DNA of 42,621 nt from positions 1-42,621 of IMG/VR virus record IMGVR_UViG_3300032163_000033, one strand, 5' to 3'. How positions within the stretch are numbered: position 1 is the stretch's first letter; every line of letters starts with the position of its first letter. Position numbers and translations under genes: made by a program. The stretch is from a virus. Of the stretch, positions 2,062 through 42,621 are shown one piece after another. A model generated the notes under the pieces. That model was not told where the DNA came from. It saw only the letters and a program-made list of their open reading frames with translations, and did no database searches.

Positions 2062-2925
2062 ATGAAAACCACAAAACTGACACCCGAACAACAAGAAAAA
2101 TTGATTGAGTTTAGAGATGAGTGCTTGGCTATTGGGCTGTCGTGCGAGCCAGTGGATGCACAATTGGCAACCGAGACGATCAGCGCGGCATATAAAATTA
2201 TGGGCCTAAAAGTGCCAGAAATTCGGATTGTGTCTTCGCCGCTGGCCGCAAATAAACTAATAAATAAAATCAGCAAAAAAAAGGCAAATAATTACACGGC
2301 TACATACCTATGGGGTGCTAGTGACATCTATTGGATCGCGTTTTATTTGTTTCCAGAAATGTACCTCGGCATTACATACCCAAAAGAATCTTCAGAAAAA
2401 TTGCATATCATGTATGAGATCGCTAAAAACACCGGTTGGTGGTATCCGTTTGAAAATTTATGCATTGTTTCCGACAGGCCCGAATATATTAAGTGCGATG
2501 ATCAAAAAAGGCTCCATTCGGCCACCGGCCCGGCAATACTCTATCGAGACGGGTTTGCTGTGTACCAGTACCATGGTGTTGATATCCCGAAAGAGTGGAT
2601 TTTAGAGAAAAATTTAACACCAGCGCAAGCGCTTACCTGGAAAAACGTAGAGCAGCGCAACGCTGCATGTCAAATACTGGGTTGGAAAAACATATTAAAA
2701 ACCCTGAAAGCGGAGATTATTGACGCCGATCCGAACCCTTATCTAGGCACGCTGTACAGCGCCACGATGCCGGGCGGCGCCGAACAAAAATTTTTAGCCG
2801 CAAAATGTGGAACCGGCCGGGAAATAGTAATACTCGCATCATCAAAAGCCAAGACCGCAAGGGAGGCGGGGGCACTGAGTTATGGTATACCAGTGACTGA
2901 CTATAACCCGGAGGCACGAACCTAA
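2062..2925 (+). CDS. DUF6745-like protein
   Basis: 287 aa from ATG 2062, with GAGG 7 bases upstream; a TTG six bases earlier lacks a well-placed site. The middle reads RLHSATGPAILYRDGFAVYQYHGV (in two blocks around residue 150), then IPKEWI and LTPAQAL. This is the LH..GPA...DG...Y..HGV pattern of DUF6745 proteins of actinobacteria and phages; the biochemical role is unknown. The C-terminus carries a basic, small-residue segment. Its stop overlaps the first array gene (TAATG at 2923-2927), so the array is probably translated after it. Confidence 0.6.
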   Translation: MKTTKLTPEQQEKLIEFRDECLAIGLSCEPVDAQLATETISAAYKIMGLKVPEIRIVSSPLAANKLINKISKKKANNYTATYLWGASDIYWIAFYLFPEMYLGITYPKESSEKLHIMYEIAKNTGWWYPFENLCIVSDRPEYIKCDDQKRLHSATGPAILYRDGFAVYQYHGVDIPKEWILEKNLTPAQALTWKNVEQRNAACQILGWKNILKTLKAEIIDADPNPYLGTLYSATMPGGAEQKFLAAKCGTGREIVILASSKAKTAREAGALSYGIPVTDYNPEART

Positions 2926-3170
2926 TGCTAGGTAAGTCTGTCAATGATAAGTTTTACATCGTGCTTGACTACGAAACTGACGTTGTGCTCAATCCCGTTC
3001 TTTCCAGCGGGATTGAGCCAGCGCTTTACGGTGCGCTACGCGGCACGTTTCCCCGCATACTTAGCCCCGCGCTTGGCCCCGCGCTTGACCGCGCGCTTGA
3101 CGCCGCGCTTACCCTCCCCCGCGCCGCCGCCCTCGTCCAGCTTCAGCAGGAAATAAAAAATGTTAGGTAA
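2925..3170 (+). CDS. Tetrapeptide-repeat small protein, array 1 unit 1
   Basis: 81 aa. It begins MLGKSVNDKF and ends ALVQLQQEIKNVR. The core is partly degenerate: the early part lacks the tetrad and holds an 11-bp perfect inverted repeat (2987-3018). Later tetrads are SPAL GPAL DRAL DAAL. The start overlaps the stop of 2062-2925 as TAATG. The tail DNA contains AGGA 8 bases before the next ATG. No known family is recognised, and there is no signal peptide. Confidence 0.7.
   Translation: MLGKSVNDKFYIVLDYETDVVLNPVLSSGIEPALYGALRGTFPRILSPALGPALDRALDAALTLPRAAALVQLQQEIKNVR
2987..3018. repeat. Perfect 11-bp inverted repeat (hairpin)
   Basis: GCTCAATCCCG (2987-2997) and its exact complement (3008-3018) flank a 10-base pyrimidine-rich loop. 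It interrupts the tetrapeptide core of unit 1 and has no T-tract, so it does not look like a terminator. It may be a small palindromic insertion. Confidence 0.7.
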
Positions 3171-3204
3171 ATCTGTCAATGATCAGTTCCGCGTCGCGCT
3201 TGGC
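3092..3204. repeat. 113-bp exact duplication, copy 1
   Basis: Identical to 3689-3801. It spans the second half of unit 1, the junction, and the start of unit 2. The duplication boundaries fall inside tetrapeptide cores, not at gene ends. Confidence 0.9.
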
Positions 3205-3453
3205 TACGCGCTTGACGACACGCTTCTCCCCGCGCTTGGCCCCGCGCTTGACGACACGCTTCGCCCCGCGCTTCGCGTCGCGCTTGACGACACGCTTCGC
3301 CCCGCGCTTGGCCCCGCGCTCCACAACGCGTTTGGCCCCGCGCTTTATGACACGCTTTACCGCACGCTTAACCGCACGCTTACCTCCACGCTTGACGCCG
3401 CGTATGACGCCGCCCTCGCCCAACTTGAGCAGGACTTAAAAAATGTTAGGTGA
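3160..3453 (+). CDS. Tetrapeptide-repeat small protein, array 1 unit 2
   Basis: 97 aa, the longest unit. Start MLGKSVNDQF, then about 18 tetrads in perfect register (RVAL GYAL DDTL LPAL ... TSTL), then DAALAQLEQDLKNVR. The start codon lies 11 bases before the end of unit 1, with AGGA 8 bases upstream. The tetrad third residue is Ala or Thr and the fourth is almost always Leu. An antisense Lys/Arg-rich frame is open here but has no independent support. Function unknown. Confidence 0.75.
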   Translation: MLGKSVNDQFRVALGYALDDTLLPALGPALDDTLRPALRVALDDTLRPALGPALHNAFGPALYDTLYRTLNRTLTSTLDAAYDAALAQLEQDLKNVR

Positions 3454-3652
3454 GTCTCTCAATAATAAGTTTCTCGTCGCGCTTGGCCCCGCGCTCCACA
3501 ACGCGTTTGGCCCCGCGCTCCACAACGCGCTTGGCCCCGAGCGTTATGACACGCTTTACGATGCGCTTAACCGCACGCTTCGCCCCGCGCTTAGCCCCGC
3601 GTATGACGCCCCCCTCGCCCAACTTGAGCAGGATCTAGAAAATGTTAGGTGA
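3443..3652 (+). CDS. Tetrapeptide-repeat small protein, array 1 unit 3
   Basis: 69 aa. Start MLGESLNNKF, core LVAL GPAL HNAF GPAL HNAL and so on, end LAQLEQDLENVR. The A-run before the next ATG is broken (ctagaaaatg). Its first 53 coding bases (3443-3495) are identical to the start of unit 4, so it is the 5' donor of that chimera. Overlaps unit 2 by 11 bases. Function unknown. Confidence 0.72.
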   Translation: MLGESLNNKFLVALGPALHNAFGPALHNALGPERYDTLYDALNRTLRPALSPAYDAPLAQLEQDLENVR

Positions 3653-3767
3653 GTCTCTCAATAATAAGTTTCTCGTCGCGCTTGGCCCCGCGCTTGACGC
3701 CGCGCTTACCCTCCCCCGCGCCGCCGCCCTCGTCCAGCTTCAGCAGGAAATAAAAAATGTTAGGTAA
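3642..3767 (+). CDS. Tetrapeptide-repeat small protein, array 1 unit 4 (minimal, chimeric)
   Basis: Only 41 aa: MLGESLNNKF, three tetrads (LVAL GPAL DAAL), then TLPRAAALVQLQQEIKNVR. Its first 53 coding bases equal those of unit 3 and everything from 3689 equals unit 1. The two identities overlap by the six bases CGCGCT at 3689-3694, the invariant core of the repeat. It is therefore a product of crossover between repeats. It keeps the ribosome site and start for unit 5. Confidence 0.75.
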   Translation: MLGESLNNKFLVALGPALDAALTLPRAAALVQLQQEIKNVR

Positions 3768-3801
3768 ATCTGTCAATGATCAGTTCCGCGTCGCGCTTGG
3801 C
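3689..3801. repeat. 113-bp exact duplication, copy 2
   Basis: Identical to 3092-3204. It covers the second half of unit 4, the junction and the start of unit 5, so unit 5 begins exactly as unit 2 does. Confidence 0.9.
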
Positions 3802-4026
3802 CCCGTGCTTCGCCGCACGCTTGACCCCGCGCTTCGCCCCGTGCTTCGCCCCGCGCTTGACCCCGCGCTTCGCCCCGCGCTTGACCACGCGCTTTATCCC
3901 GCGCTTTACCGCACGCTTGACCCCGCGCTTTACGACGCGCTTTATCCCGCGCTTTACCGCACGCTTGACCCCGCGAATGACGCCGCCCTCGTCCAACTTC
4001 AGCGGGAAATAAAAAATGTTAGGTAA
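3757..4026 (+). CDS. Tetrapeptide-repeat small protein, array 1 unit 5
   Basis: 89 aa and a clean example of the architecture: MLGKSVNDQF, then 15 tetrads without a break (RVAL GPVL RRTL DPAL RPVL RPAL ... YRTL), DPAN, then DAALVQLQREIKNVR. Codons follow NNY NNC RYG CTT throughout. Asp, Arg or Tyr fills the first position and Pro, His, Asp or Arg the second. The period of four would spiral slowly on a helix, but frequent Pro argues against a plain alpha-helix. Function unknown. Confidence 0.78.
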   Translation: MLGKSVNDQFRVALGPVLRRTLDPALRPVLRPALDPALRPALDHALYPALYRTLDPALYDALYPALYRTLDPANDAALVQLQREIKNVR

Positions 4027-4249
4027 ATCTGTCAATAATAAGTTTTACGACACGCTTCGCCCCGCGCTTGACCCCGCGCTTTATGATGCGCTTAACACCG
4101 CGCTTAACACCGCGCTTCACGACGCGCTTACCCCCGCGCTTTACAATGCGCTTGACCACGCGCTTTACAATGCGCTTCGCGTCGCGCTTTATCCCGCGCT
4201 TCGCCCCGCCATCGTCCAACTTCAGAAGGACTTAAAAAATGTTAAATAA
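4016..4249 (+). CDS. Tetrapeptide-repeat small protein, array 1 unit 6 (last)
   Basis: 77 aa: MLGKSVNNKF, 13-14 tetrads (YDTL RPAL DPAL YDAL NTAL ...), end VQLQKDLKNVK. The usual following ATG at 4239 starts a different gene, a small zinc-ribbon-like protein, rather than another unit. So the array's coupling signal (AGGA, 8 bases, ATG) has been inherited by an unrelated gene. Confidence 0.75.
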   Translation: MLGKSVNNKFYDTLRPALDPALYDALNTALNTALHDALTPALYNALDHALYNALRVALYPALRPAIVQLQKDLKNVK

Positions 4250-4409: not shown

Positions 4410-4624
4410 TGCTAAAAAAAGAAAATTATTACAAAGCGATAATTATTATAATGATAAATATGGCAGTATTATGGGTGATTGTTTTTTCATTATCAATTAA
4501 ACCCTCTCGCGCAAGCAGTACAAATATAATTATTACATCATGCGTTGATCACAAAATAATATTGAAAACCAAAGATTGGCGAGCATGGAAAATTGATGGC
4601 GACAATCAGCCAGAGGAATGCTAA
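4406..4624 (+). CDS. Small exported or membrane-anchored protein
   Basis: 72 aa. A strong hydrophobic segment (residues about 9-30, IIIIMINMAVLWVIVFSL) follows a short basic N-terminus; a signal-peptide-like site is near PSRAS. The outside part is about 38 aa with two cysteines, one at the C-terminus. AGAGGTGA lies upstream. The stop overlaps the next ATG as TAATG (4622-4626). No family recognised; an envelope role is likely. Confidence 0.6.
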   Translation: MMLKKENYYKAIIIIMINMAVLWVIVFSLSIKPSRASSTNIIITSCVDHKIILKTKDWRAWKIDGDNQPEEC

Positions 4625-5307
4625 TGACACCATATATTTTAGCCGAAATTGCATCTGCCCACGACGGGAGCTTGCGCACAATTAAAGATATGATCCGCGT
4701 AGCTGGCGCGGTAGGCGCAGACGGTGTAAAACTACAAATATGGGCACATTCAGAACTACCGGAATCTGAATATAAGGCCAATATGGCAGGAATTGAATTC
4801 TCGGTGCAGGAATGGACGGGAATAATAAAACACGCATTAGATCATTTTGATAAAGACGATATTTGGGCCGAATTCTATGGATCCGCATCTGCGCATATAT
4901 TCAGTAATCAAGTTGGGCAGATAAAGGTATCAAGCGCCAACGCCGCCGAGATATGTTCAGCCAGGGGCAGGAACGTGTGGTGGAGAAATGGCCTCGAACA
5001 TTTAGGCGGGGGATACGACGGTATATGTATTGGCCAACAGTTACGACCGACACCAATAAAAGATTCGCAGATCAGAAATATTAAACAGTGGGCACAACAA
5101 AGACCCGTCCTATATGCTGACCATACTGATACAAAAGTCGATTCTGTTCCGATTTGTGCAATGGCTATGACATTTGGTGCATGTGTAATCGAAAAACATT
5201 TTACATTAAATTCCAACATATATGGAAGGGACAGCGTGAGCGCTCTCACTCCAACAGGATTTAAGGCTTTTGCTGAAAAATTAAATGAATTAAGTGAGGC
5301 ACTATGA
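4624..5307 (+). CDS. Short NeuB-like nonulosonate synthase (barrel only)
   Basis: 227 aa from ATG 4624 (GAGG 7 bases upstream; an earlier ATG at 4618 lacks spacing). It is related to sialic/legionaminic/pseudaminic acid synthases, which condense a hexose derivative with phosphoenolpyruvate. Visible signatures are ILAEIASAHDG (N-term), GADGVKLQ (K36), QIKVSSANA, ADHTDT and GACVIEKHFTL (metal and PEP site region). Family members are about 340 aa; this one ends after the TIM barrel and lacks the C-terminal SAF/antifreeze-like domain that completes the active site across the dimer. It may have another substrate or a non-catalytic role. Its stop overlaps the first unit of array 2. Confidence 0.75.
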   Translation: MTPYILAEIASAHDGSLRTIKDMIRVAGAVGADGVKLQIWAHSELPESEYKANMAGIEFSVQEWTGIIKHALDHFDKDDIWAEFYGSASAHIFSNQVGQIKVSSANAAEICSARGRNVWWRNGLEHLGGGYDGICIGQQLRPTPIKDSQIRNIKQWAQQRPVLYADHTDTKVDSVPICAMAMTFGACVIEKHFTLNSNIYGRDSVSALTPTGFKAFAEKLNELSEAL

Positions 5308-5537
5308 TGCTAGGTGAGCCTCTCAACAATAAGTTTTACGAGGCGCTTAGCCCCGCGCTTTACAATGCGCTTCGCCCCGCGCTTGACCCCGCGCTTGACG
5401 ACGCGCTTTACCACGCGCTTGACGACGCGCTTGACCACGCGCTTCATCGCACGCTTGACCAAGCGCTTCGCCCCGTGCTTGACCCCGTGCTTGACGCCGC
5501 CACCGTCCAGCTTCAGCAGGACTTAAAAAAATGCTAG
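5307..5537 (+). CDS. Tetrapeptide-repeat small protein, array 2 unit 1
   Basis: 76 aa from ATG 5307 (MLGEPLNNKF). A second ATG three bases upstream (5304) overlaps the NeuB-like stop. Fifteen or so tetrads: YEAL SPAL YNAL RPAL DPAL DDAL ... RPVL DPVL, then DAATVQLQQDLKKC. The Shine-Dalgarno AGGA at 5518-5521 serves the next unit. The ATGATGA overlap implies coupling to NeuB-like translation. Confidence 0.75.
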   Translation: MLGEPLNNKFYEALSPALYNALRPALDPALDDALYHALDDALDHALHRTLDQALRPVLDPVLDAATVQLQQDLKKC

Positions 5538-5761
5538 GTGAGTCTCTCAATTACAAGTTTTACACCGCGCTTCGCCCCGCGCTTAGCCCCGCGCTTTACA
5601 ATGCGCTTGACCGCACGCTTTACAATGCGCTTTACAATGCGCTTAGCCCCGCGCCTTACCCCGCGCTTCGCGTCGCGCTTTACCAAGCGCTTGACGACGC
5701 GCTTCGCCCCGCGCATGACGCCCCCCTCGCCCAACTTCAGCGGGACTTAAAAAAATGTTAG
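5531..5761 (+). CDS. Tetrapeptide-repeat small protein, array 2 unit 2
   Basis: 76 aa: MLGESLNYKF, tetrads YTAL RPAL SPAL YNAL DRTL YNAL YNAL SPAP YPAL RVAL YQAL DDAL RPAH, then DAPLAQLQRDLKKC. Starts within the end of unit 1 (7-base overlap). Gln codons (caa) occasionally break the NNC rule. Function unknown. Confidence 0.75.
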   Translation: MLGESLNYKFYTALRPALSPALYNALDRTLYNALYNALSPAPYPALRVALYQALDDALRPAHDAPLAQLQRDLKKC

Positions 5762-5961
5762 GTGAGTCTCTCAATTACAAGTTTTACGAGGCGCTTAGCC
5801 CCGCGCTTGACCAAGCGCTTAGCTCCGCGCATGACGACGCGCTTGACGCCGCGCTTTACGACGCGCTTCAGCGCACGCTTTACCAAGCGCTTGACCACGC
5901 GCTTGACCCCGCACGCGCCGCCGCCACCGCCCAACTTCAGCGGGACTTAAAAAAATGTTAG
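5755..5961 (+). CDS. Tetrapeptide-repeat small protein, array 2 unit 3
   Basis: 68 aa: MLGESLNYKF, tetrads YEAL SPAL DQAL SSAH DDAL DAAL YDAL QRTL YQAL DHAL DPAR, then AAATAQLQRDLKKC. Same 7-base overlap and A7 run at the end (5949-5955). The first ten residues are identical to unit 2. Function unknown. Confidence 0.75.
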   Translation: MLGESLNYKFYEALSPALDQALSSAHDDALDAALYDALQRTLYQALDHALDPARAAATAQLQRDLKKC

Positions 5962-6149
5962 GCGAGTCTCTCAATAATAAGTTTCACGACGCGCTTGACT
6001 ACGCGCTTGACCACGCGCTTCGCTCCGCGCTTGACCCCGCGCTTTACGACGCGCTTGACCACGCGCTTGACCACGAGCTTTACCACGCGCTTGACCCCGC
6101 GCTTCTCGTCGCGCTTGACACCGCGCTTCGCGCTTGGCCGCACGAATGA
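5955..6149 (+). CDS. Tetrapeptide-repeat small protein, array 2 unit 4 (C-terminus altered)
   Basis: 64 aa: MLGESLNNKF then HDAL DYAL DHAL RSAL DPAL YDAL DHAL DHEL YHAL DPAL LVAL DTAL, ending RAWPHE. The conserved tail is missing: after the last tetrad the sequence leaves register and stops. It is the last unit, so the missing tail matters little for a following gene; the next gene has its own AAGGGA site. Confidence 0.7.
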   Translation: MLGESLNNKFHDALDYALDHALRSALDPALYDALDHALDHELYHALDPALLVALDTALRAWPHE

Positions 6150-6184: not shown

Positions 6185-6868
6185 ATGAACGGAAAAACGA
6201 TTATCTGCATAATAGCGAGGCTTAAGTCGAGAAGACTTCCTCAAAAGGCGCTCGCTGTGCTTTACGGCGAAACATTAATAATGAGGCTAATAGAGAGGCT
6301 AAGGGGGGTTAAAATACCCATAGTGCTATGTACTAGCAATAACACGCAAGACATGCCATTAGCTGATATAGCTCAATCTAATGGCCTATCTTACATTCAG
6401 GGGGACGAGGATGATGTAATGAGTAGAGCACTAGATGCTGCTGACATTTGTGGGGCAGACACTATCATCCGGGTTACCGGGGACAATCCGCTGACTGATC
6501 CAGATTTATTGGCCTACCTGCTGCAAAGGCATAAGGGGGCGGATAATGACTACACCTACACCAAAGACGCGCCCAGGGGAACGCGGTCGGAGATAATCAA
6601 AACAACTGCCCTATACCAGCTTTATAAGGGGCTTTCAGGGACAGCACGGAATGACACTGAATACATGACTAATTATCTATTTACCTTGCCTAAACGAGAA
6701 AATATTCAATTACCGCTGATGTGGGTCGCCCGCGATCAATCATTTACTGTAGATACCCCAGATGATCTGGAATATGTGCGTCAAATATATGACGAATTTC
6801 AAGGGAAGCCGCCTAAATTAGAGGAATTAATTCAATGGGGGAATAAACACCCAAAGATAAAGGGGTGA
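6185..6868 (+). CDS. SpsF/NeuA-type cytidylyltransferase
   Basis: 227 aa nucleotidyltransferase of the acylneuraminate cytidylyltransferase superfamily, which makes CMP-activated sugar acids. The N-terminal nucleotide-binding signature is IIARLKSRRLPQKAL (9-23), followed by VMSRALDAA, IIRVTGDNPLTDPDLL (the D-containing metal site) and FTVDTPDDLEYV near the C-terminus, all arranged as in SpsF proteins. AAGGGA precedes the ATG. With two NeuB-like genes in the genome it could complete a nonulosonic acid activation path, but SpsF members vary in substrate. Last gene of the accessory block. Confidence 0.8.
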   Translation: MNGKTIICIIARLKSRRLPQKALAVLYGETLIMRLIERLRGVKIPIVLCTSNNTQDMPLADIAQSNGLSYIQGDEDDVMSRALDAADICGADTIIRVTGDNPLTDPDLLAYLLQRHKGADNDYTYTKDAPRGTRSEIIKTTALYQLYKGLSGTARNDTEYMTNYLFTLPKRENIQLPLMWVARDQSFTVDTPDDLEYVRQIYDEFQGKPPKLEELIQWGNKHPKIKG

Positions 6869-11390: not shown

Positions 11391-11594
11391 ATGCCGGTTA
11401 CACGCTTTGATCACAGCCTTCAACATGCCCAACAAATAGACATGTTAAGAACGAAAAACCAGAAACTAGAGAAAAGGGTCGAGGCTCTTGAAGAGCAAGT
11501 AAAAACACTTATTGAGGTCACGGCAAAACGTCCGGTGGGTCGCCCACCAAAAGCCGATGAATCAAAAGACGCAAAAGACGAACAAGCCGCTTGA
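11391..11594 (+). CDS. Small coiled-coil protein with AT-hook-like motif
   Basis: 67 aa, AAGGA before ATG. Residues about 10-45 form a heptad coiled coil (LRTKNQKLEKRVEALEEQV); then comes KRPVGRPPKA, an AT-hook-type minor-groove binding motif, and an acidic/Lys end. Similar small proteins lie beside terminase in other phages, but the role is unknown. The stop overlaps the next start as TTGA (11591-11594). Confidence 0.65.
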   Translation: MPVTRFDHSLQHAQQIDMLRTKNQKLEKRVEALEEQVKTLIEVTAKRPVGRPPKADESKDAKDEQAA

Positions 11595-12547
11595 CCTACA
11601 TCATCGCCGAGGTTGGTGGAAATCATGACGGTAATATCAACACCGCCTTAGAGCTGATTTATCTTGCTTCAGAGGCCGGGGCGGATGCAGTAAAATTTCA
11701 AACCTTTACTGCTGAAAAACTGGTTTCTAAAACAGCCGACGCCCTCCCTCAAGCAAGAAGGGCGGGGTATACTTCTCAATTGGAGCGATTCAAAGACCTG
11801 GAATTCTCTGAGTTCGATTGGGAGCGGATTATTCAAGAGTGTAAAAAAGAGAATATTGACTTTTTAACAACTTGTTTTGATCCAGAAACTTTAAGGCTTT
11901 TCTCCCCGAGGATGAAATTTATCAAAATAGCCTCGGGTGATCTGACCTACAAAGCCTTGCTTCGGGAAGCCCGTGCCACAGGAAAGCATGTCTTGTTGTC
12001 CAGCGGAATGTCGTCTATGGAAGAAATCAATGAAGCCGTAAGGATACTTGATCGTGATAACGTTACCGTCCTGCACTGTGTTTCTGCCTACCCCACACCG
12101 GACGATCACGCGAATCTGGGGGTGATTACTTCACTTAAGTCGATTTACAGCTCAGTAGGATATTCTGATCATACCGTGGGGATAACGGCTTGTTTAGTAG
12201 CCCTGGGATTGGGGGCCGAGGTCATCGAGAAGCATTTTACCCTGGATTCAAGTAAAGAATACGGGGATCATCCCTTATCTGCTGAATTCGAGGAATTAAA
12301 GGTTCTCGTGGAGGAATCAAAAAGAATATCTTTGATGTTAGGCGTAGAAAAACCGGACTCAATTGAATTAATCAACAAAAATCTGTTACGAAGAGGCGTG
12401 TATGCAGCAAAAAACATCCCTCTTGGCGTGCCTATTAGCGAAAAAGACATAATTGAATTACGTCCAGCAACAAGATGTCAATATAATGACGTTATCGGAA
12501 GACGTGCAAAGAAGCCCTATTCCATTGGAATGCCCCTAGATGCCTGA
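11591..12547 (+). CDS. neuB: NeuB-type nonulosonic acid synthase (full length)
   Basis: 318 aa from TTG 11591, overlapping the previous stop. It is a sialic/legionaminic/pseudaminic acid synthase-like enzyme: TIM barrel with YIIAEVGGNHDGN, GADAVKFQ, FIKIASGDL, SSGMSS, GYSDHTVG and GAEVIEKHFTLD, followed by a C-terminal SAF/antifreeze-like domain (LLRRGVYAAKNIPLGVPI...DIIELRP). The family condenses a 2-acetamido sugar with phosphoenolpyruvate. The SAF end is slightly short, ending at GMPLDA where it overlaps the portal start by 8 bases. It is unusually placed between TerL and portal, so it would be expressed with virion genes. Substrate cannot be told from sequence alone. Confidence 0.88.
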   Translation: MTYIIAEVGGNHDGNINTALELIYLASEAGADAVKFQTFTAEKLVSKTADALPQARRAGYTSQLERFKDLEFSEFDWERIIQECKKENIDFLTTCFDPETLRLFSPRMKFIKIASGDLTYKALLREARATGKHVLLSSGMSSMEEINEAVRILDRDNVTVLHCVSAYPTPDDHANLGVITSLKSIYSSVGYSDHTVGITACLVALGLGAEVIEKHFTLDSSKEYGDHPLSAEFEELKVLVEESKRISLMLGVEKPDSIELINKNLLRRGVYAAKNIPLGVPISEKDIIELRPATRCQYNDVIGRRAKKPYSIGMPLDA

Positions 12548-35672: not shown

Positions 35673-35793
35673 GTTATCACTAATATTCTTATGTTTATCG
35701 GACACTAATCTGCAATGGCTGCCGGTTGAAATTAAAACCGCACCCGGATGGGTGGCAAAAGACCGTTGGGAGCAGCGGGTTTATTGTCGTTGA
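35665..35793 (+). CDS. Small hypothetical protein overlapping the minus-strand gene
   Basis: 42 aa, ATG 35665 inside the end of the previous tiny gene, stop 35793. It reads MNKLSLIFLCLSDTNLQWL, then PVEIKTAPGWVAKDRWEQRV and YCR. Its last 62 bases overlap the 3' end of the convergent radical SAM gene. A short phage-like ending (WEQRVYCR) gives it some support, but it may be fortuitous. Confidence 0.35.
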   Translation: MNKLSLIFLCLSDTNLQWLPVEIKTAPGWVAKDRWEQRVYCR

Positions 35794-36676
35794 ACCAAAC
35801 ATGGGTTGAACCCACGGTACATTTTTCGCATGGAAATCCTTTTTCTGGGGTATTGGATTGCTTCCTGATCATTTCCATTTTTTCAGAATTCCACAGCCCC
35901 ATAATTCCAACATCCTGATAGTTCCCTAGCGGGAATTCATCATACCAAGAAGAACAGCAAGGGTACCCTACCCCATTCCAGCCTATGACAAGCCGTTGCC
36001 AGGGCTGGGCGCAACGTTTTCTCCCTACCGACACAAACCTCCCAGACAACAACCTCCCGTCCTGCCCCCTATCTGAGGCGGGCCTTATACGAATATCCCT
36101 TGTATACCGTAAAAACTTCTCGACAAACGAAACCGCTTCATGATCATTTTGTTTTTGTTGCGTCATTTGTATCCTGAGTTTTGTCCTTCCTTTATTTTTC
36201 TCTCTAAAAAATTCCAATCTTTGTACCAATTTATCCCATGACGCCCCTACCCGGATGCTCTCATAGGTTTCTTTTGTTGCGCCATCTACCGAAACGATTA
36301 ATCGATCTAACCCGCCATCAATTAAATTTTCGATCCTCTCCTCAGATAACGCAACTAAGTTTGTGTTTAATTGCACTTCTTTAATGTCAGCACATTTAGC
36401 GAGAAGCACAAAATTTTCAAGCTCTTTGTGTAAAGCTGATTCCCCCCTGAACTGAAATTTTATTGATGGAATGCCAAGAAATGCAGCCTCGTTAATTAAT
36501 GAGGCTGCCATGTCATTCGGCATCATTCCCTTTTCTGTTATTGGATCAAAACCATGTCTACACATAGTGCATTTTAGATTGCAATGGTTTGTTAGTTCAA
36601 TATCCAAATGCAGCGGAACCCTGAAATGGATATTAAACCTTTCAGCTAACCACCATTTTATTCTATAAAATTTCAT
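35732..36676 (-). CDS. Radical SAM/SPASM enzyme
   Basis: 314 aa. N-terminal cluster motif CNLKCTMC (C32, C36, C39) binds the 4Fe-4S used to cleave S-adenosylmethionine; GESALHKELENF and LNTNLVALS follow the usual barrel. A SPASM-type C-terminal Cys set (RKRCAQPWQRLVIGWNGVGY, PCCSSW, FPCEKC) binds a second cluster. Related enzymes modify peptides or sugars. Third gene of a minus-strand operon after an epimerase and a glycosyltransferase, so a sugar-related reaction is plausible. Overlaps the epimerase by 14 bases. Confidence 0.82.
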   Translation of the reverse strand: MKFYRIKWWLAERFNIHFRVPLHLDIELTNHCNLKCTMCRHGFDPITEKGMMPNDMAASLINEAAFLGIPSIKFQFRGESALHKELENFVLLAKCADIKEVQLNTNLVALSEERIENLIDGGLDRLIVSVDGATKETYESIRVGASWDKLVQRLEFFREKNKGRTKLRIQMTQQKQNDHEAVSFVEKFLRYTRDIRIRPASDRGQDGRLLSGRFVSVGRKRCAQPWQRLVIGWNGVGYPCCSSWYDEFPLGNYQDVGIMGLWNSEKMEMIRKQSNTPEKGFPCEKCTVGSTHVWFNDNKPAAPNGLLPPIRVRF

Positions 36677-37508
36677 AGTTTTCTACATACCATTCAACAG
36701 TGTCAATAATCAATTTTTCTATTTTTGTATTTGGTTCATAATTCAACAAAAGTTTAGCGTTGTTAATGTCAACGATATTGGTTAAAGCCTCACCCGGCCT
36801 TGGCTGTAGATTAATTATCTCAGCACCTGTAATTCTTGCGACGATCTTGGCGATATCATACACCGATATTTGAGTCCCTGAACCGATAGCTATCGGCCCA
36901 CACCTACCGCCAAATCTGGATTCAGAGGCGGCCTTAATTGCTCCGCAAATATCATCAACATGAACCATGTCTCTTGTTTGAAGACCCGTCCCGTTTATGT
37001 ATATTTTCTTTTCTTTCAAAGCTGTTTTACAAAAAGAAGCGACAACAGAGGACTTTTCTACAGAGAACGGGCCGAAGACGTTGGTAAAACGTAGAACGAT
37101 AATATCGAGCTTGTTTACTGTTTGATACGCTTTTGCAATCGCTTCATTGCAAGCCTTTCCCGCGCCATAGTGGTGAGTGGGATGATCGGCCGCCGAGCTG
37201 GAGGCAAGAATTATCTTTATGTCAGAGTTAATTCTGTTGACAGCTTCGAGCACATTAACTGTGCCGAGCACATTAGTTTCAAATGAGGCTAATGGTAATT
37301 TATTGCATTGTGGTATCCCAGAGATTGCCGCAAGATGAATGATACAGTCCGGCCTCCCATTATCAATGCTGTCCATCACCCTATGGAAATCTACAACATC
37401 ATCAAACTCACTATCAGTGATATCTAATCCAAGAAAATCAATATCAGGATTGTTGCGTAAAAATGCAGAACCGATAAAACCCTTGTAACCAGTAATTAAG
37501 TATTTCAT
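36663..37508 (-). CDS. NAD-dependent sugar epimerase/dehydratase
   Basis: 281 aa extended SDR. NAD motif GYKGFIG (7-13), Ser triad LASSSAAD (about 101-108) and catalytic YGAGK (Y114, K118), then RFTNVFGP and TRDMVHVDDIC. These are typical of UDP-sugar 4-epimerases and dTDP-sugar dehydratases; the substrate cannot be chosen. Overlaps the glycosyltransferase by 4 bases, so the two are co-translated. Confidence 0.85.
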   Translation of the reverse strand: MKYLITGYKGFIGSAFLRNNPDIDFLGLDITDSEFDDVVDFHRVMDSIDNGRPDCIIHLAAISGIPQCNKLPLASFETNVLGTVNVLEAVNRINSDIKIILASSSAADHPTHHYGAGKACNEAIAKAYQTVNKLDIIVLRFTNVFGPFSVEKSSVVASFCKTALKEKKIYINGTGLQTRDMVHVDDICGAIKAASESRFGGRCGPIAIGSGTQISVYDIAKIVARITGAEIINLQPRPGEALTNIVDINNAKLLLNYEPNTKIEKLIIDTVEWYVENYEIL

Positions 37509-38143
37509 TTTGTCACCCCGTATTTTTCCTCTAGCATTTTCCTCACCTTCTCCCGTTCCTCAATATTTGTTGACATACTCTCATGCCCAGTCCTATAGAA
37601 GTATAGCGGAAGCGGTAAATGTTTGGAGACATAACCATCCCGTCGGAACCGGCACCATAAATCAAAGGCCTCTTGATATTGAAGCGATTCATCATACCCA
37701 CCTAGTGCCTCGAATGTTTCCCGCCTGATTAGAACACCGCAGGCATGCTCCAGCTTCTCATGGTGCCTAACGCTATCGCCGCCAAAATAATCACAATGCA
37801 CAGCATCACAGTTATACGACGCCGCGACCCTTACCAACAAGCCAACAGTCATAGGCGTAATACTATCATCCGCATCAACCCGCATAAAATATTCCCCAGT
37901 GGATGCATTTATGCCCCTATTGGAAGCGGCCGCTAGCGATTGCGGATCAGTGCGAATGATTACTGCATCCCGATGGGTGCTCGCATATTCGATCATCTCA
38001 TCAACAACCACCGAGCCCCCATTATTAACAATAATCAGTTCGTTGCCATAATGCTGAGACTCAATACTGTGGATACACTCGGCCAAATACTCGACATACG
38101 CCTCGTGAGCTACCACTATCACCGATACCTTTTTGCTGTTCAT
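37505..38143 (-). CDS. Family 2 glycosyltransferase
   Basis: 212 aa GT-A enzyme: KVSVIVVAHEAYVEYLAECI at the start, LAAASNRGINASTGEYFMRV and the metal-binding DADD (D90-D93), then RRETFEALGGYDESLQYQEA and FDLWCRF. First gene of the minus-strand operon; AGGGGG lies just upstream. Shorter than many GT2 members but with the full catalytic core. Probably adds a sugar to a host or virion glycan. Confidence 0.82.
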   Translation of the reverse strand: MNSKKVSVIVVAHEAYVEYLAECIHSIESQHYGNELIIVNNGGSVVVDEMIEYASTHRDAVIIRTDPQSLAAASNRGINASTGEYFMRVDADDSITPMTVGLLVRVAASYNCDAVHCDYFGGDSVRHHEKLEHACGVLIRRETFEALGGYDESLQYQEAFDLWCRFRRDGYVSKHLPLPLYFYRTGHESMSTNIEEREKVRKMLEEKYGVTK

Positions 38144-39062: not shown

Positions 39063-39275
39063 ATGGCAAATGATTACTATATCAGGGAGCCTGATATTAT
39101 GAACGAACTTGATACCACAGAAATACAGGAATATCTCTATTTTGAGGCCTTCAAGATTATGAAGGAATTGTATTGCCTGGATGATGATTTTTTTCAATTC
39201 GTTCGTTGTTTAGATAACACCTTCAACCACAACATGGGGAAAAAATATGATTTACAAACAGATCGTAAACACTAA
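39063..39275 (+). CDS. Small acidic early protein
   Basis: 70 aa, TAGGAG before ATG. Acidic and aromatic (DIMNELDTTEIQEYLYFEAF; DDDFFQFVRCLDN). Overlaps the SSB-like gene by 29 bases. Such acidic early proteins may mimic DNA or inhibit host factors, but nothing specific can be claimed. Confidence 0.55.
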   Translation: MANDYYIREPDIMNELDTTEIQEYLYFEAFKIMKELYCLDDDFFQFVRCLDNTFNHNMGKKYDLQTDRKH

Positions 39276-39771
39276 ATACGGCCCAAAAGCGGAGTGCGTC
39301 AACGATAAGGGGGAAACAAAACAGTACACCATGTCCCCCCTTGCATTGCAAAAAGCAATGTCTTTTACGCCTGGATTGGAAATATGGGCAAAATGGGGGA
39401 AGGATCAGGCGGGATATGTCTTTGTTGAAGAATGGACAAATATTGCCCCTATCAAAAAACCTTATACGGGTTCTGGTGGATCACAGGCGTATGATCCAAA
39501 GACCTTTGTGTCTAACGTGGTAGGGCAGGCTATCGCCTCAAAGGCCATTGTCAGCCCCGATCAGATCGATGCTTGGGCTAAGGCGGCTTGGAAGGCGATC
39601 AACTCCCTGGCCCCCGCTGTGGCAGCTGAGGGTATCGCCTTAGTGCGAGCTGCCGTTGCTCCACAGCAAGCGCCCTATCAAGCCGTACAGCAGCCCCCTC
39701 AGGGAAATCAAAACCCCCAGGGCTGGGATCAGGCCTATCCAGACTTTAACGACGATATTCCGGCGTTTTAA
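39247..39771 (+). CDS. Single-stranded DNA-binding-like protein
   Basis: 174 aa. The N-terminal 80 residues are beta-rich (KYGPKAECVNDKGETKQYTM; WAKWGKDQAGYVFVEEW) and could be an OB-like fold; the middle is Ala-rich, then a Gln/Pro linker and an acidic tip FNDDIPAF, the signature C-terminus of SSB proteins. It lies directly before an exonuclease gene, as in phage recombination operons. GGGGA upstream. Confidence 0.65.
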   Translation: MIYKQIVNTKYGPKAECVNDKGETKQYTMSPLALQKAMSFTPGLEIWAKWGKDQAGYVFVEEWTNIAPIKKPYTGSGGSQAYDPKTFVSNVVGQAIASKAIVSPDQIDAWAKAAWKAINSLAPAVAAEGIALVRAAVAPQQAPYQAVQQPPQGNQNPQGWDQAYPDFNDDIPAF

Positions 39772-39773
39772 TC

Positions 39774-40535
39774 ATGGACACTTACCCTCTTTACAATGGT
39801 GACGTTATTTTGACGTTTGATGACAAAAAACACGTCTATCGAGTCAATGACGAAATTGTCCCGTCTGTTACGGGGATCGTTGAGGCAATTGGCGGAAAAT
39901 TTTCGATTGGCGCCGGTTGGGCGGCGAAAATGTGCGGGGAATATTTGGAGGCCAACCTAACGCCGGAAATTGCACAAGATGAAATCCAGCTAAAGGCTTT
40001 TGCAAAAGAAATGAAATCACAGCACAGGAAGAAGACGGAATTCGCCGCCGACATCGGGACTTTAGTGCATGATTTTTTACACAAGTTTATGACCAAGCAA
40101 AACCCATCCCAACCAAACAACCCGCAAGCCGCGACCGCCTGCAAAAAGTTTATTGAATGGTCAAAAAATCATGATATTGAAGTGCTGGGTTCTGAGAAGA
40201 AAATATATTCACAAATCTTTAAGTATGCTGGCACTTATGATCTCGATTGTATGTTTGATGGTGAACGAACCATGATCGACTTTAAAACGTCCGCCGCCGT
40301 CTATCCTGAGAATTTTATTCAGCTAGGCGGGTATATCATAGCCGTAGAAGAGGAGCTTGGTGCTAATGAGGATGTTTTTAAATCATCCATGATCATCCGC
40401 TGCCCCAAAGACGGGAACGATATTGAGATTAAGCGAACCAACAGCGTCGTAAGAGATACGACTGCTTTTATGTCAGCGGTAGACATATATAGGCGATTAG
40501 CTGATCTTAAAACCTATTTGGCGAAAGCTGGATAA
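39774..40535 (+). CDS. PD-(D/E)XK exonuclease (RecB-like)
   Basis: 253 aa. GTLVHDFLHKF (about 95-105), E141 in VLGSEKKIYS, D156/D158 in GTYDLDCMFDGE, D169-x-K171 in MIDFKTS and QLGGY (183-187) give the full RecB-family catalytic set. Probably makes recombinogenic ends together with the SSB-like protein; NinG near the junction could act on the same intermediates. The genome has no visible polymerase, so recombination-dependent replication with host enzymes is plausible. Confidence 0.82.
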   Translation: MDTYPLYNGDVILTFDDKKHVYRVNDEIVPSVTGIVEAIGGKFSIGAGWAAKMCGEYLEANLTPEIAQDEIQLKAFAKEMKSQHRKKTEFAADIGTLVHDFLHKFMTKQNPSQPNNPQAATACKKFIEWSKNHDIEVLGSEKKIYSQIFKYAGTYDLDCMFDGERTMIDFKTSAAVYPENFIQLGGYIIAVEEELGANEDVFKSSMIIRCPKDGNDIEIKRTNSVVRDTTAFMSAVDIYRRLADLKTYLAKAG

Positions 40536-40919: not shown

Positions 40920-41153
40920 ATGTTAGGTGAGTCTCTCAACAATAAGTTTCACGACGCGCTTGGCCCCGCGCTTGACCACGCGCTTTACGATGCGCTTGAC
41001 CACGCGCTTTACGATGCGCTTTACCACGCGCTTTACCACGCGCTTTACGATGCGCTTTACCACACGCTTTACCGCACGCTTAACCGCACGCTTACCTCCG
41101 CGCATGACGCCCCCCTCGCCCAACTTCAGAAGGAAATAAAAAATGTTAGGTAA
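40920..41153 (+). CDS. Tetrapeptide-repeat small protein, array 3 unit 1
   Basis: 77 aa from ATG 40920 (AAGG 9 bases upstream). MLGESLNNKF, then HDAL GPAL DHAL YDAL DHAL YDAL YHAL YHAL YDAL YHTL YRTL NRTL, TSAH, DAPLAQLQKEIKNVR. Rich in Tyr and His. An upstream in-frame extension exists but lacks a site and is not in other units. Function unknown. Confidence 0.75.
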   Translation: MLGESLNNKFHDALGPALDHALYDALDHALYDALYHALYHALYDALYHTLYRTLNRTLTSAHDAPLAQLQKEIKNVR

Positions 41154-41325
41154 ATCTCTCAATGATAAGTTTTACGACGCGCTTCGCCCCGCGCTTGGCC
41201 ACGCGCTTGACCCCGCGCTTGACCCCGCACTTCGCGACGCGCTTGACCACGCGCTTTATCCCGCGCTTTACGATGCGCTTCGCTTCGCGCGCGCCGCCCC
41301 CCTCGCCCAACTTGAGCAGGACTAG
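41143..41325 (+). CDS. Tetrapeptide-repeat small protein, array 3 unit 2 (tail shortened)
   Basis: 60 aa: MLGKSLNDKF, YDAL RPAL GHAL DPAL DPAL RDAL DHAL YPAL YDAL, RFAR, AAPLAQLEQD, then TAG in place of the Leu codon of the tail (gactag). It does not overlap unit 3, which starts 3 bases after the stop, yet the AGGA spacing is retained. Confidence 0.72.
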   Translation: MLGKSLNDKFYDALRPALGHALDPALDPALRDALDHALYPALYDALRFARAAPLAQLEQD

Positions 41326-41328
41326 AAA

Positions 41329-41526
41329 ATGCTAGGTGAGTCTCTCAATAATAAGTTTTACACCGCGCTTGACCACGCGCTTTACCGCGCGCTTCTCCCC
41401 GCGCTTGACCCCGCGCTTTATCCCGCGCTTTACAGTGCGCTTCGAGTCGCGCTTTACCGCACGCTTGGCCCCGCGCTTCTCACCGCCCTCGCCCAACTTG
41501 AGCAGGACTTAAAAAATGTTAGGTGA
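41329..41526 (+). CDS. Tetrapeptide-repeat small protein, array 3 unit 3
   Basis: 65 aa: MLGESLNNKF, YTAL DHAL YRAL LPAL DPAL YPAL YSAL RVAL YRTL GPAL, then LTALAQLEQDLKNVR. Ribosome site GCAGGA. Overlaps unit 4 by 11 bases. Function unknown. Confidence 0.75.
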   Translation: MLGESLNNKFYTALDHALYRALLPALDPALYPALYSALRVALYRTLGPALLTALAQLEQDLKNVR

Positions 41527-41713
41527 GTCTCTCAATAATAAGTTTTACACCGTGCTTGACGACGCGCCTGCCCAAACGCTTTACCGCGTGCTCCACAACG
41601 CGCTTGGCCCCGAGTTTAATCGCACACTTCGCCGCGCGCTTTACCGCACGCTTGACCCCGCGAATGACGCCGCCCTCGCCCAACTTCAGCGGGACTTAAA
41701 AAATGTTAGGTAA
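41516..41713 (+). CDS. Tetrapeptide-repeat small protein, array 3 unit 4
   Basis: 65 aa: MLGESLNNKF, then a more diverged core YTVL DDAP AQTL YRVL HNAL GPEF NRTL RRAL YRTL DPAN, then DAALAQLQRDLKNVR. The register of four is kept even where Ala and Leu are replaced. Overlaps unit 5 by 11 bases. Confidence 0.74.
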   Translation: MLGESLNNKFYTVLDDAPAQTLYRVLHNALGPEFNRTLRRALYRTLDPANDAALAQLQRDLKNVR

Positions 41714-41897
41714 ATCTCTCAATAATAAGTTTTACGCGCTCCACGACGCGCTTCGCCCCGCGCTTGACCCCGTGCTTGACGACGCGCTTGACCCCGCGCT
41801 CCACGACACGCTTGACCACGCGCTTTACCGCACGCTTGACCCCGCGAATTACGATATCCTCGTCCAACTTCAGCGGGAAATAAAAAATGTTAGGTAA
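41703..41897 (+). CDS. Tetrapeptide-repeat small protein, array 3 unit 5
   Basis: 64 aa: MLGKSLNNKF, YALH DALR PALD PVLD in a shifted reading of the tetrad (three bases missing after YA), then DDAL DPAL HDTL DHAL YRTL DPAN YDILVQLQREIKNVR. The shift keeps the protein frame while changing the tetrad phase relative to the start. Function unknown. Confidence 0.74.
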   Translation: MLGKSLNNKFYALHDALRPALDPVLDDALDPALHDTLDHALYRTLDPANYDILVQLQREIKNVR

Positions 41898-42108
41898 ATC
41901 TCTCAATGATAAGTTTTACGACACGCTTCGCCCCGCGCTTGACCACGCGCTTCGCGTCGCGCTTCTCGTCGCGCTTGGCCCCGCGCTTTATCCCGCGCTT
42001 CGACGCACGCTTTATCGCACGCTTGAACGCACGCTCCACGACACGCTTACCCCCGTACTTGACGATATCCTCGTCCAGCTGGAACGAGACATAACAAAGG
42101 AAACCTGA
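41887..42108 (+). CDS. Tetrapeptide-repeat small protein, array 3 unit 6 (last)
   Basis: 73 aa: MLGKSLNDKF, YDTL RPAL DHAL RVAL LVAL GPAL YPAL RRTL YRTL ERTL HDTL TPVL, then DDILVQLERDITKET. The tail differs from other units (ITKET instead of IKNVR) and the next gene has its own AAGGA site, so the array ends here. Confidence 0.75.
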   Translation: MLGKSLNDKFYDTLRPALDHALRVALLVALGPALYPALRRTLYRTLERTLHDTLTPVLDDILVQLERDITKET

Positions 42109-42109
42109 T

Positions 42110-42418
42110 ATGAAAATATCAACAGCACTGCAATTACTGGTCGATACCGATGAAATATGCGGCCGCCTCAAGGGATCATGCGACGCGCTGGAATATCAGA
42201 TAAAAGTCATGGAGGCAACCGGTTATCTTGAAGCGTCTGGAACGCAAGACGAACGAAAGTCTAGGGCAAGAACAACGGAGGCATATATAGCATTGACACA
42301 TGACTATGGTAGTACCAGGATCGACTATGAAATTATAGCGGCAAAGCGAAAGACAGCTGAATTAACTATTGAAGTCTGGCGGTCAGTTAACGCTAATCGA
42401 CGCCGTGGCAATATATGA
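42110..42418 (+). CDS. Small helical protein upstream of ninG
   Basis: 102 aa, AAGGA before ATG 42110. Almost wholly helical and charged, with a C-terminal KRKTAELTIEVWRSVNANRR, resembling small early phage proteins near recombination genes. Four-base overlap with ninG (ATGA at 42415). Function unknown; co-expression with NinG is likely. Confidence 0.6.
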   Translation: MKISTALQLLVDTDEICGRLKGSCDALEYQIKVMEATGYLEASGTQDERKSRARTTEAYIALTHDYGSTRIDYEIIAAKRKTAELTIEVWRSVNANRRRGNI

Positions 42419-42621
42419 AGAAGAAACATATAAAGAAAAAAATGACGTTGCCAAGGCTTAAAAAAAAGGTATGGAAAGCTTTCAGCATTTATATACGGCA
42501 TCAAACAAAAGAATATATACCATGCTATACATGCGGGCAAGTGAATCACTGGACTTGCCTGCACGCTGGGCACGCGATAGCCGGAAGACATAACGGAGTT
42601 CTATTTGATTTATTTTTAGTA
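42415..42621 (+). CDS. ninG: NinG-like recombination protein, 5' part
   Basis: The start of the gene that continues at base 122 of the window. ATG overlaps the previous stop (ATGA). Residues 1-69: a Lys-rich N-terminus, VWKAFSIYIRHQTKEYIPCY, TCGQVNHW, CLHAGHAIAGRHNGVLFDLF. Through the 121-bp overlap it differs from the left copy by one residue (Leu for Ile). Joined length is about 140 aa, near the usual size of NinG. Confidence 0.82.
   Translation, partial: MKKKHIKKKMTLPRLKKKVWKAFSIYIRHQTKEYIPCYTCGQVNHWTCLHAGHAIAGRHNGVLFDLFLV
42501..42621. repeat. Right copy of 121-bp terminal direct repeat
   Basis: Matches 1-121 except at 42591 (T) and 42601 (C). See left copy. Confidence 0.9.

Follow-up and report, generated by a model that had tools for sequence, protein, structure and literature searches.

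A tailed phage, whose whole virus record of 42,621 bases (the window) was analyzed here, quite probably carries a hypervariable, translationally coupled family of small genes made of xxAL tetrapeptide repeats, which would be diversified by in-register recombination and of which the fourth unit of the first array would be a recombinant. Comparison of the units with one another and with those of a sister phage (IMGVR_UViG_3300036766_000196, contig L001) supports the view that unit 4 is a chimera, produced by repeat-mediated recombination, in which a head of the unit 3 type is joined to a tail of the unit 1 type.

Genome organization and the repeat-gene arrays

An SU10-type portal and major capsid protein and a terminase were recognized in this genome. 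The ends of the record (positions 1-121 and 42501-42621) overlap by 121 bp with 98.3% identity and two mismatches, and the phage genome, of about 42.5 kb, is therefore probably circular or circularly permuted. The two mismatches perhaps reflect population variation at the circular join. The genome contains 16 tandem units of 12-nt repeat genes spread over three plus-strand arrays: array 1 (2925-4249), with six overlapping xxAL-repeat genes (W01-W06); array 2 (5307-6149), with four units (W07-W10); and array 3 (40920-42108), with six units (W11-W16). GC content is 57-60% in the arrays versus 45% in the rest of the genome, and most array ends sit tight against the adjoining genes. A DUF6745 protein is encoded directly before array 1 (2056-2925), and in both phages its stop codon overlaps the start of the first unit. 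Arrays 1 and 2 are located among genes of the sugar/surface-glycan type, which occur at 524-1633, 4618-5307, 6185-6868, 11591-12547 and 35732-38143 and include two epimerases, two NeuB-like synthases, a cytidylyltransferase and a GT2 glycosyltransferase; a radical SAM/SPASM protein is encoded there in addition.

The unit plan consists of a conserved head of about 10 codons (MLGESLNNKF type), a body of 12-nt repeats, each encoding the tetrapeptide x-x-Ala-Leu, and a conserved tail (..QLQxDLKNVR) that also contains the purine-rich site for the following unit and extends over its start codon. Neighboring units overlap by 11 nt (7 nt in array 2), and the sole exception is W12, which ends 3 nt short of W13. 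In array 1, unit 1 (W01, 2925-3170) is followed on the same strand by unit 2 (W02, 3160-3453, 97 aa), unit 3 (W03, 3443-3652), unit 4 (W04, 3642-3767), unit 5 (W05, 3757-4026) and unit 6 (W06, 4016-4249), which closes the array and the end of which overlaps the following gene at 4239. Non-repetitive stretches occur within the repeat body of W01 (segment 2960-3060), where the insert is also present in the sister unit S12, and within that of the sister unit S05 (L001:9817-10011). Fusion of units by frameshifting at the A6/A7 run was considered and rejected, as the relative frame of neighbors is not conserved because the run has seven A in array 2 and six in arrays 1 and 3.

Unit 4 and its junction

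The preliminary description of this DNA had equated bases 3642-3694 with 3443-3495 and bases 3689-3801 with 3092-3204. Both identities are exact. The left tract is actually 3 nt longer and reaches its maximal extent at 3639-3694 (plus strand, 56 nt, identical to 3440-3495 at the head of unit 3), while the right tract, 3689-3801 (plus strand, 113 nt, identical to 3092-3204, the tail of unit 1 and the head of unit 2), was already maximal. The two meet in the hexanucleotide CGCGCT, as had been stated, and their overlap at exactly 3689-3694 (plus strand) constitutes the ambiguity interval of the junction. No exact repeats longer than these two tracts occur within arrays 1 and 2 or the region that separates them, and in a wider comparison they are also the longest within the arrays of either phage. 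The description of unit 4 as an intact gene was likewise confirmed: its ORF (3642-3767) encodes a 41-aa product, MLGESLNNKFLVALGPALDAALTLPRAAALVQLQQEIKNVR, a purine-rich Shine-Dalgarno-like site (GAGCAGGA) is sited upstream in the tail of unit 3, and the final 11 nt overlap unit 5. At 41 aa, unit 4 is shorter than all the other units (60-97 aa). A 38-nt string across the junction occurs only once in the window and is absent from 14.8 kb of the sister phage.

Unit 3 is the presumed donor of the head and unit 1 the presumed donor of the tail, the direction of transfer of the 113-nt tract being presumptive as well. Both the exact breakpoint and the direction of the event appear ambiguous from the sequence. 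The switch might have occurred inside CGCGCT, but an identical unit 4 would also be produced by a two-step route, in which a crossover in the 18-nt CGCGCTTGGCCCCGCGCT common to units 3 and 1 is followed by the slippage loss of one 12-mer that lies between the copies of a 10-nt repeat.

Reshuffling between sister phages

The flanks that the two phages share are highly similar, with 98.6% and 99.2% identity in the long ones and 94.4% in one of 391 nt. However, only three of the 12 complete sister units have a counterpart of at least 90% over the full length, i.e., S01 with W13, S10 with W12 and S12 with W01 (identity of 0.943 for the last pair). The matching units S10 and W12 belong to different arrays, and the same holds for W05 (unit 5) and S04, the sister unit that matches it best. 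S09 and W16, both of them the final unit of array 3, have their last 117 nt in common, while the head and first repeats of S09 resemble those of W10 of array 2, which makes S09 a W10-type head joined to a W16-type tail. This comparison shows an array set that has apparently been reshuffled at a much higher rate than the remaining genome and in which units have evidently moved between arrays and recombined.

The preliminary description had taken unit 4 as direct evidence that units recombine within their cores and had looked to related genomes for further chimeras with breakpoints at this same site. Recombination between units is borne out by the chimeras of the one sister phage surveyed, but its restriction to cores is not. 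Besides repeat cores, the start-codon and tail segments also contain switches, and any stretch of in-register identity can therefore serve.

The core CGCGCT, which had been considered invariant or present in most repeats, is found in phase in only 171 of the 356 twelve-nt steps (48%), and [GA]CGCTT in 237 of them (67%). When two units are cut in register at a uniformly random base, the ambiguity interval is at least 6 nt long in 43% of the cuts and includes the core in 35%; if random cuts are detected in a manner similar to that applied to the real data, the share with at least 6 nt is 47%. With this probability of 35-47% by chance, a single core junction is no evidence of a core hot spot; unit 4 thus stands as a chimera, while the location of its crossover at the core is not established. 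Pooling of the interior switches gives 28 of 32 within identity stretches of at least 6 nt, compared with 47% under the null, in a set of events that are not independent and in which two (W13/S01) represent one point difference and no true switch. This result suggests that switching depends on sequence identity. Runs of at least four identical 12-mers are shared in six cases, while none was obtained in any of 300 replicates of a shuffle in which the same 12-mers were permuted across all units.

Register, frame and coding constraint

The distance from head to tail is in 12-bp register in 23 of the 28 units of both phages. W15, S03, S05 and S07 are off register by one codon. W10 (5955-6149), with which array 2 closes, has lost the register as well and carries a frame break close to its 3′ end (..CTTCGCGCTTGGCCGCACGAATGA). 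That recombining units stay in frame, as had been claimed, is an automatic outcome of the repeat length of 12, and W10 indicates that not every rearrangement preserves the frame. The register itself is kept much more often than in the one case out of four to be expected if only frame selection operated, which would point to repeat-mediated changes.

Most of the variation among repeats falls on the first and second positions of both x codons. The silent positions are nearly fixed (core CGCGCTT and C-ending codons), and Arg is encoded by CGC in 94% of cases in the arrays versus 11% in the other genes tested. A protein-level constraint acts in frame 0 of the arrays, because a Cys codon is avoided at the first x position: TGC is seen there 0 times versus 23 expected from base composition, and 0 versus 6.3 when only distinct 12-mers are counted (permutation P 0.0002). 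The antisense or the +2 frame as the true gene was rejected, since these frames are open merely by repeat arithmetic and the Cys avoidance favors frame 0. Within the arrays, the antisense frames mostly have TTG as start codon.

Proposed mechanism and alternative explanations

In the proposed mechanism, the repeat, with its near-constant silent positions and varying x residues, would leave enough in-register identity between genes and between arrays to allow mispairing during replication or recombination. Switching by unequal exchange, template switch or single-strand annealing would then generate new combinations of heads, bodies and tails as well as new lengths, and in the case of unit 4 would have joined the unit-3-type head to the unit-1-type tail with loss of the body between. 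The machinery may be formed by the phage exonuclease and a NinG-like nuclease, or the process may occur by RecA-independent replication misalignment. The exonuclease (39774-40535, plus strand; PHROG 298, E=6.6e-32) is encoded just upstream of array 3 and is a candidate for the recombination function. The product of 39247-39771 (plus strand) is an SSB-like candidate by its acidic DDIPAF tail only and has no PHROG or Pfam match. The gene for the NinG/Rap-like nuclease starts downstream of array 3 (42415-42621, plus strand) and continues at 1-337 across the circular join; it was assigned through its sister homolog (L001:11105-11527), which matches NinG. Counter to the preferred reading, the parents of unit 4 share only some 55% identity in the 36 nt that flank the junction on each side, which is poor for classical homologous recombination. 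It is a rather doubtful extension of this mechanism that the phage's own exonuclease/NinG module shuffles the tiny-gene array, so that each lineage would have its own repertoire of small proteins against host factors, and that this would constitute an undescribed diversification system.

Several other explanations have to be weighed against in-register recombination. An assembly or amplification artefact, i.e., collapsed repeats or template switching during DNA amplification, is an unlikely source of the chimera. Short-period repeats pose difficulties in assembly, the contig of the sister phage breaks off within an array (S13), the 121-bp terminal overlap of the window contains two mismatches, and the 56- and 113-nt flanking repeats may have been joined to the wrong neighbors. 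However, the two parental identities have no more than 6 nt in common, which makes it very unlikely that a graph misjoin created the junction, and an assembler normally needs an overlap or k-mer far longer than this. Moreover, the 38-nt junction string is unique, and the sister phage independently displays the same type of shuffling. Replication slippage alone, through an internal deletion after a local duplication (a copy of unit 3 followed by copies of units 1 and 2), has some claim to the origin of unit 4, albeit as a possibility that we do not favor. The small size of unit 4 is in line with it, the exact sequence of this unit is reproduced by the two-step route that includes slippage, and RecA-independent misalignment is the route inferred for the repeats of TAL effectors (PMC7845958). 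Nevertheless, slippage needs an earlier duplication of units 1-2 behind the copy of unit 3, and the exchanges between distant arrays seen in the sister phage exceed what is local.

It is very unlikely that CGCGCT acts as a recombination hot spot or recombinase site to which the crossover is specifically targeted. The excess of pooled switches in long identity stretches agrees with it, but the core is merely the longest stretch commonly shared, half of the steps lack an in-phase CGCGCT, heads and tails without this motif also switch, chance suffices for the one unit 4 event, and no such recombinase was recognized among the proteins scanned. It is also improbable that the arrays are DNA-level elements, i.e., iteron-like binding sites of 12 bp in which the core is conserved and the spacer free, and of which the ORFs would be a by-product. 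This is suggested by the core CGCGCTT and the silent sites, the conservation of which greatly exceeds that of the spacer bases, and by the repeat length of 12 bp, close to one helical turn. Yet every unit has a start codon, for most a ribosome site is present in the preceding tail, most units precisely overlap their neighbors, the units are in operons closely spaced with same-strand neighboring genes, and Cys is avoided at the first spacer codon.

Relatives and possible function

Relatives of the units were found in the sister phage only among the viral contigs searched, and none was found in the genome contigs and phage records searched. When viral and GTDB contigs were scanned loosely for the 12-mer, only unrelated simple repeats turned up besides the sister phage, and a match to a Streptomyces plasmid was rejected as low-complexity and antisense to an annotated ORF. 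Searches of Pfam, PHROGs and NCBIfam gave weak, chance-level matches at most, those to PHROGs being mostly of unknown function; the 28 units matched none of the PADLOC defence models (0 families), and no credible match was obtained among PDB sequences or plasmid records. A literature search on tandem paralogous small phage genes returned nothing. AlphaFold2 predicted a single helix of 63 residues (pLDDT 85, pTM 0.43), which is not trusted because a third of the repeats carry Pro and the period of 4 does not give one amphipathic face. Two genes related to the one that follows array 3 (33-41% identical) have no array directly upstream, and these empty sites were rejected as too distant for dating the insertion.

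The unit proteins might be accessory host-interaction proteins under selection for diversity, a tentative assignment that we regard as possible rather than probable. If the preferred reading of in-register recombination is true, about 3.4 kb of a phage of about 42.5 kb would be given over to small coupled genes that form a rapidly evolving repertoire; their silent sites, being nearly constant, would preserve partners for recombination, and the variation would fall on residue-changing sites. How repeat structure, recombination and protein diversification are linked would then be directly testable in two very close genomes, in a protein family without credible match in Pfam, PHROGs, NCBIfam, PADLOC, PDB, or the phage and plasmid records and GTDB genomes searched.

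Comparison with known systems

Several known systems share part of this organization. With regard to a diversity-generating retroelement, no reverse transcriptase was recognized among the proteins scanned (a subset of ORFs), and the four variable repeat positions show no clear adenine-centered pattern. Pentapeptide or hexapeptide beta-helix repeats do not fit the units either, which have a period of 4 residues and no Pfam match. Short coding repeats also occur in ORFs of distantly related phages (pentapeptide, hexapeptide and xVAL; L058, L085 and L099 among others), but these are single tracts in which no head-tail coupled multi-gene array was seen. The one at L099:1-280, with which a distant terminase relative starts, is a 12-nt repeat that reads xVAL in one frame and xSAT on the opposite strand, with one variable codon each, and is a possible parallel case. 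A 20-fold 12-nt repeat (FFTL/FFAL/VFTL) is also present on the minus strand of a Bacteriovoracaceae MAG (L107, ~6260-6480), with no evident relation to the units.

The internal proteins of T4 (IPI-III), which are present in the virion and have a capsid targeting sequence that is cleaved, are products of small genes with a short common N-terminus and diverse bodies. The units resemble them in gene size, in their short shared N-terminus and in the diversity of their bodies, but there is no sequence match and the unit bodies are simple repeats. A precedent in phages for protein diversity by modular reshuffling is provided by the gp38 adhesins of T-even phages, in which hypervariable segments alternating with conserved short motifs are reshuffled (PMC6630733). 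In contrast to the 16 tandem genes described here, which have no link to tail genes and no glycine-rich motifs in any unit, gp38 is encoded by one adhesin gene with glycine-rich motifs. In the TAL effectors of Xanthomonas, as in the phage, tandem short coding repeats have two variable residues each and a length that is a multiple of 3, which keeps changes in frame, and new variants of the TAL arrays arise by recombination and deletion between repeats (PMC7845958). No TAL effector-like repeat (33-35 residues, with the RVD at 12-13) was found in the units, whose 4-residue repeat has no Pfam match; the phage repeat comprises 4 residues versus 34 and is, as predicted from the ORFs, distributed over many tiny overlapping genes. 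In all, the kind of process is already known, and the gene family and its architecture appear to be new.
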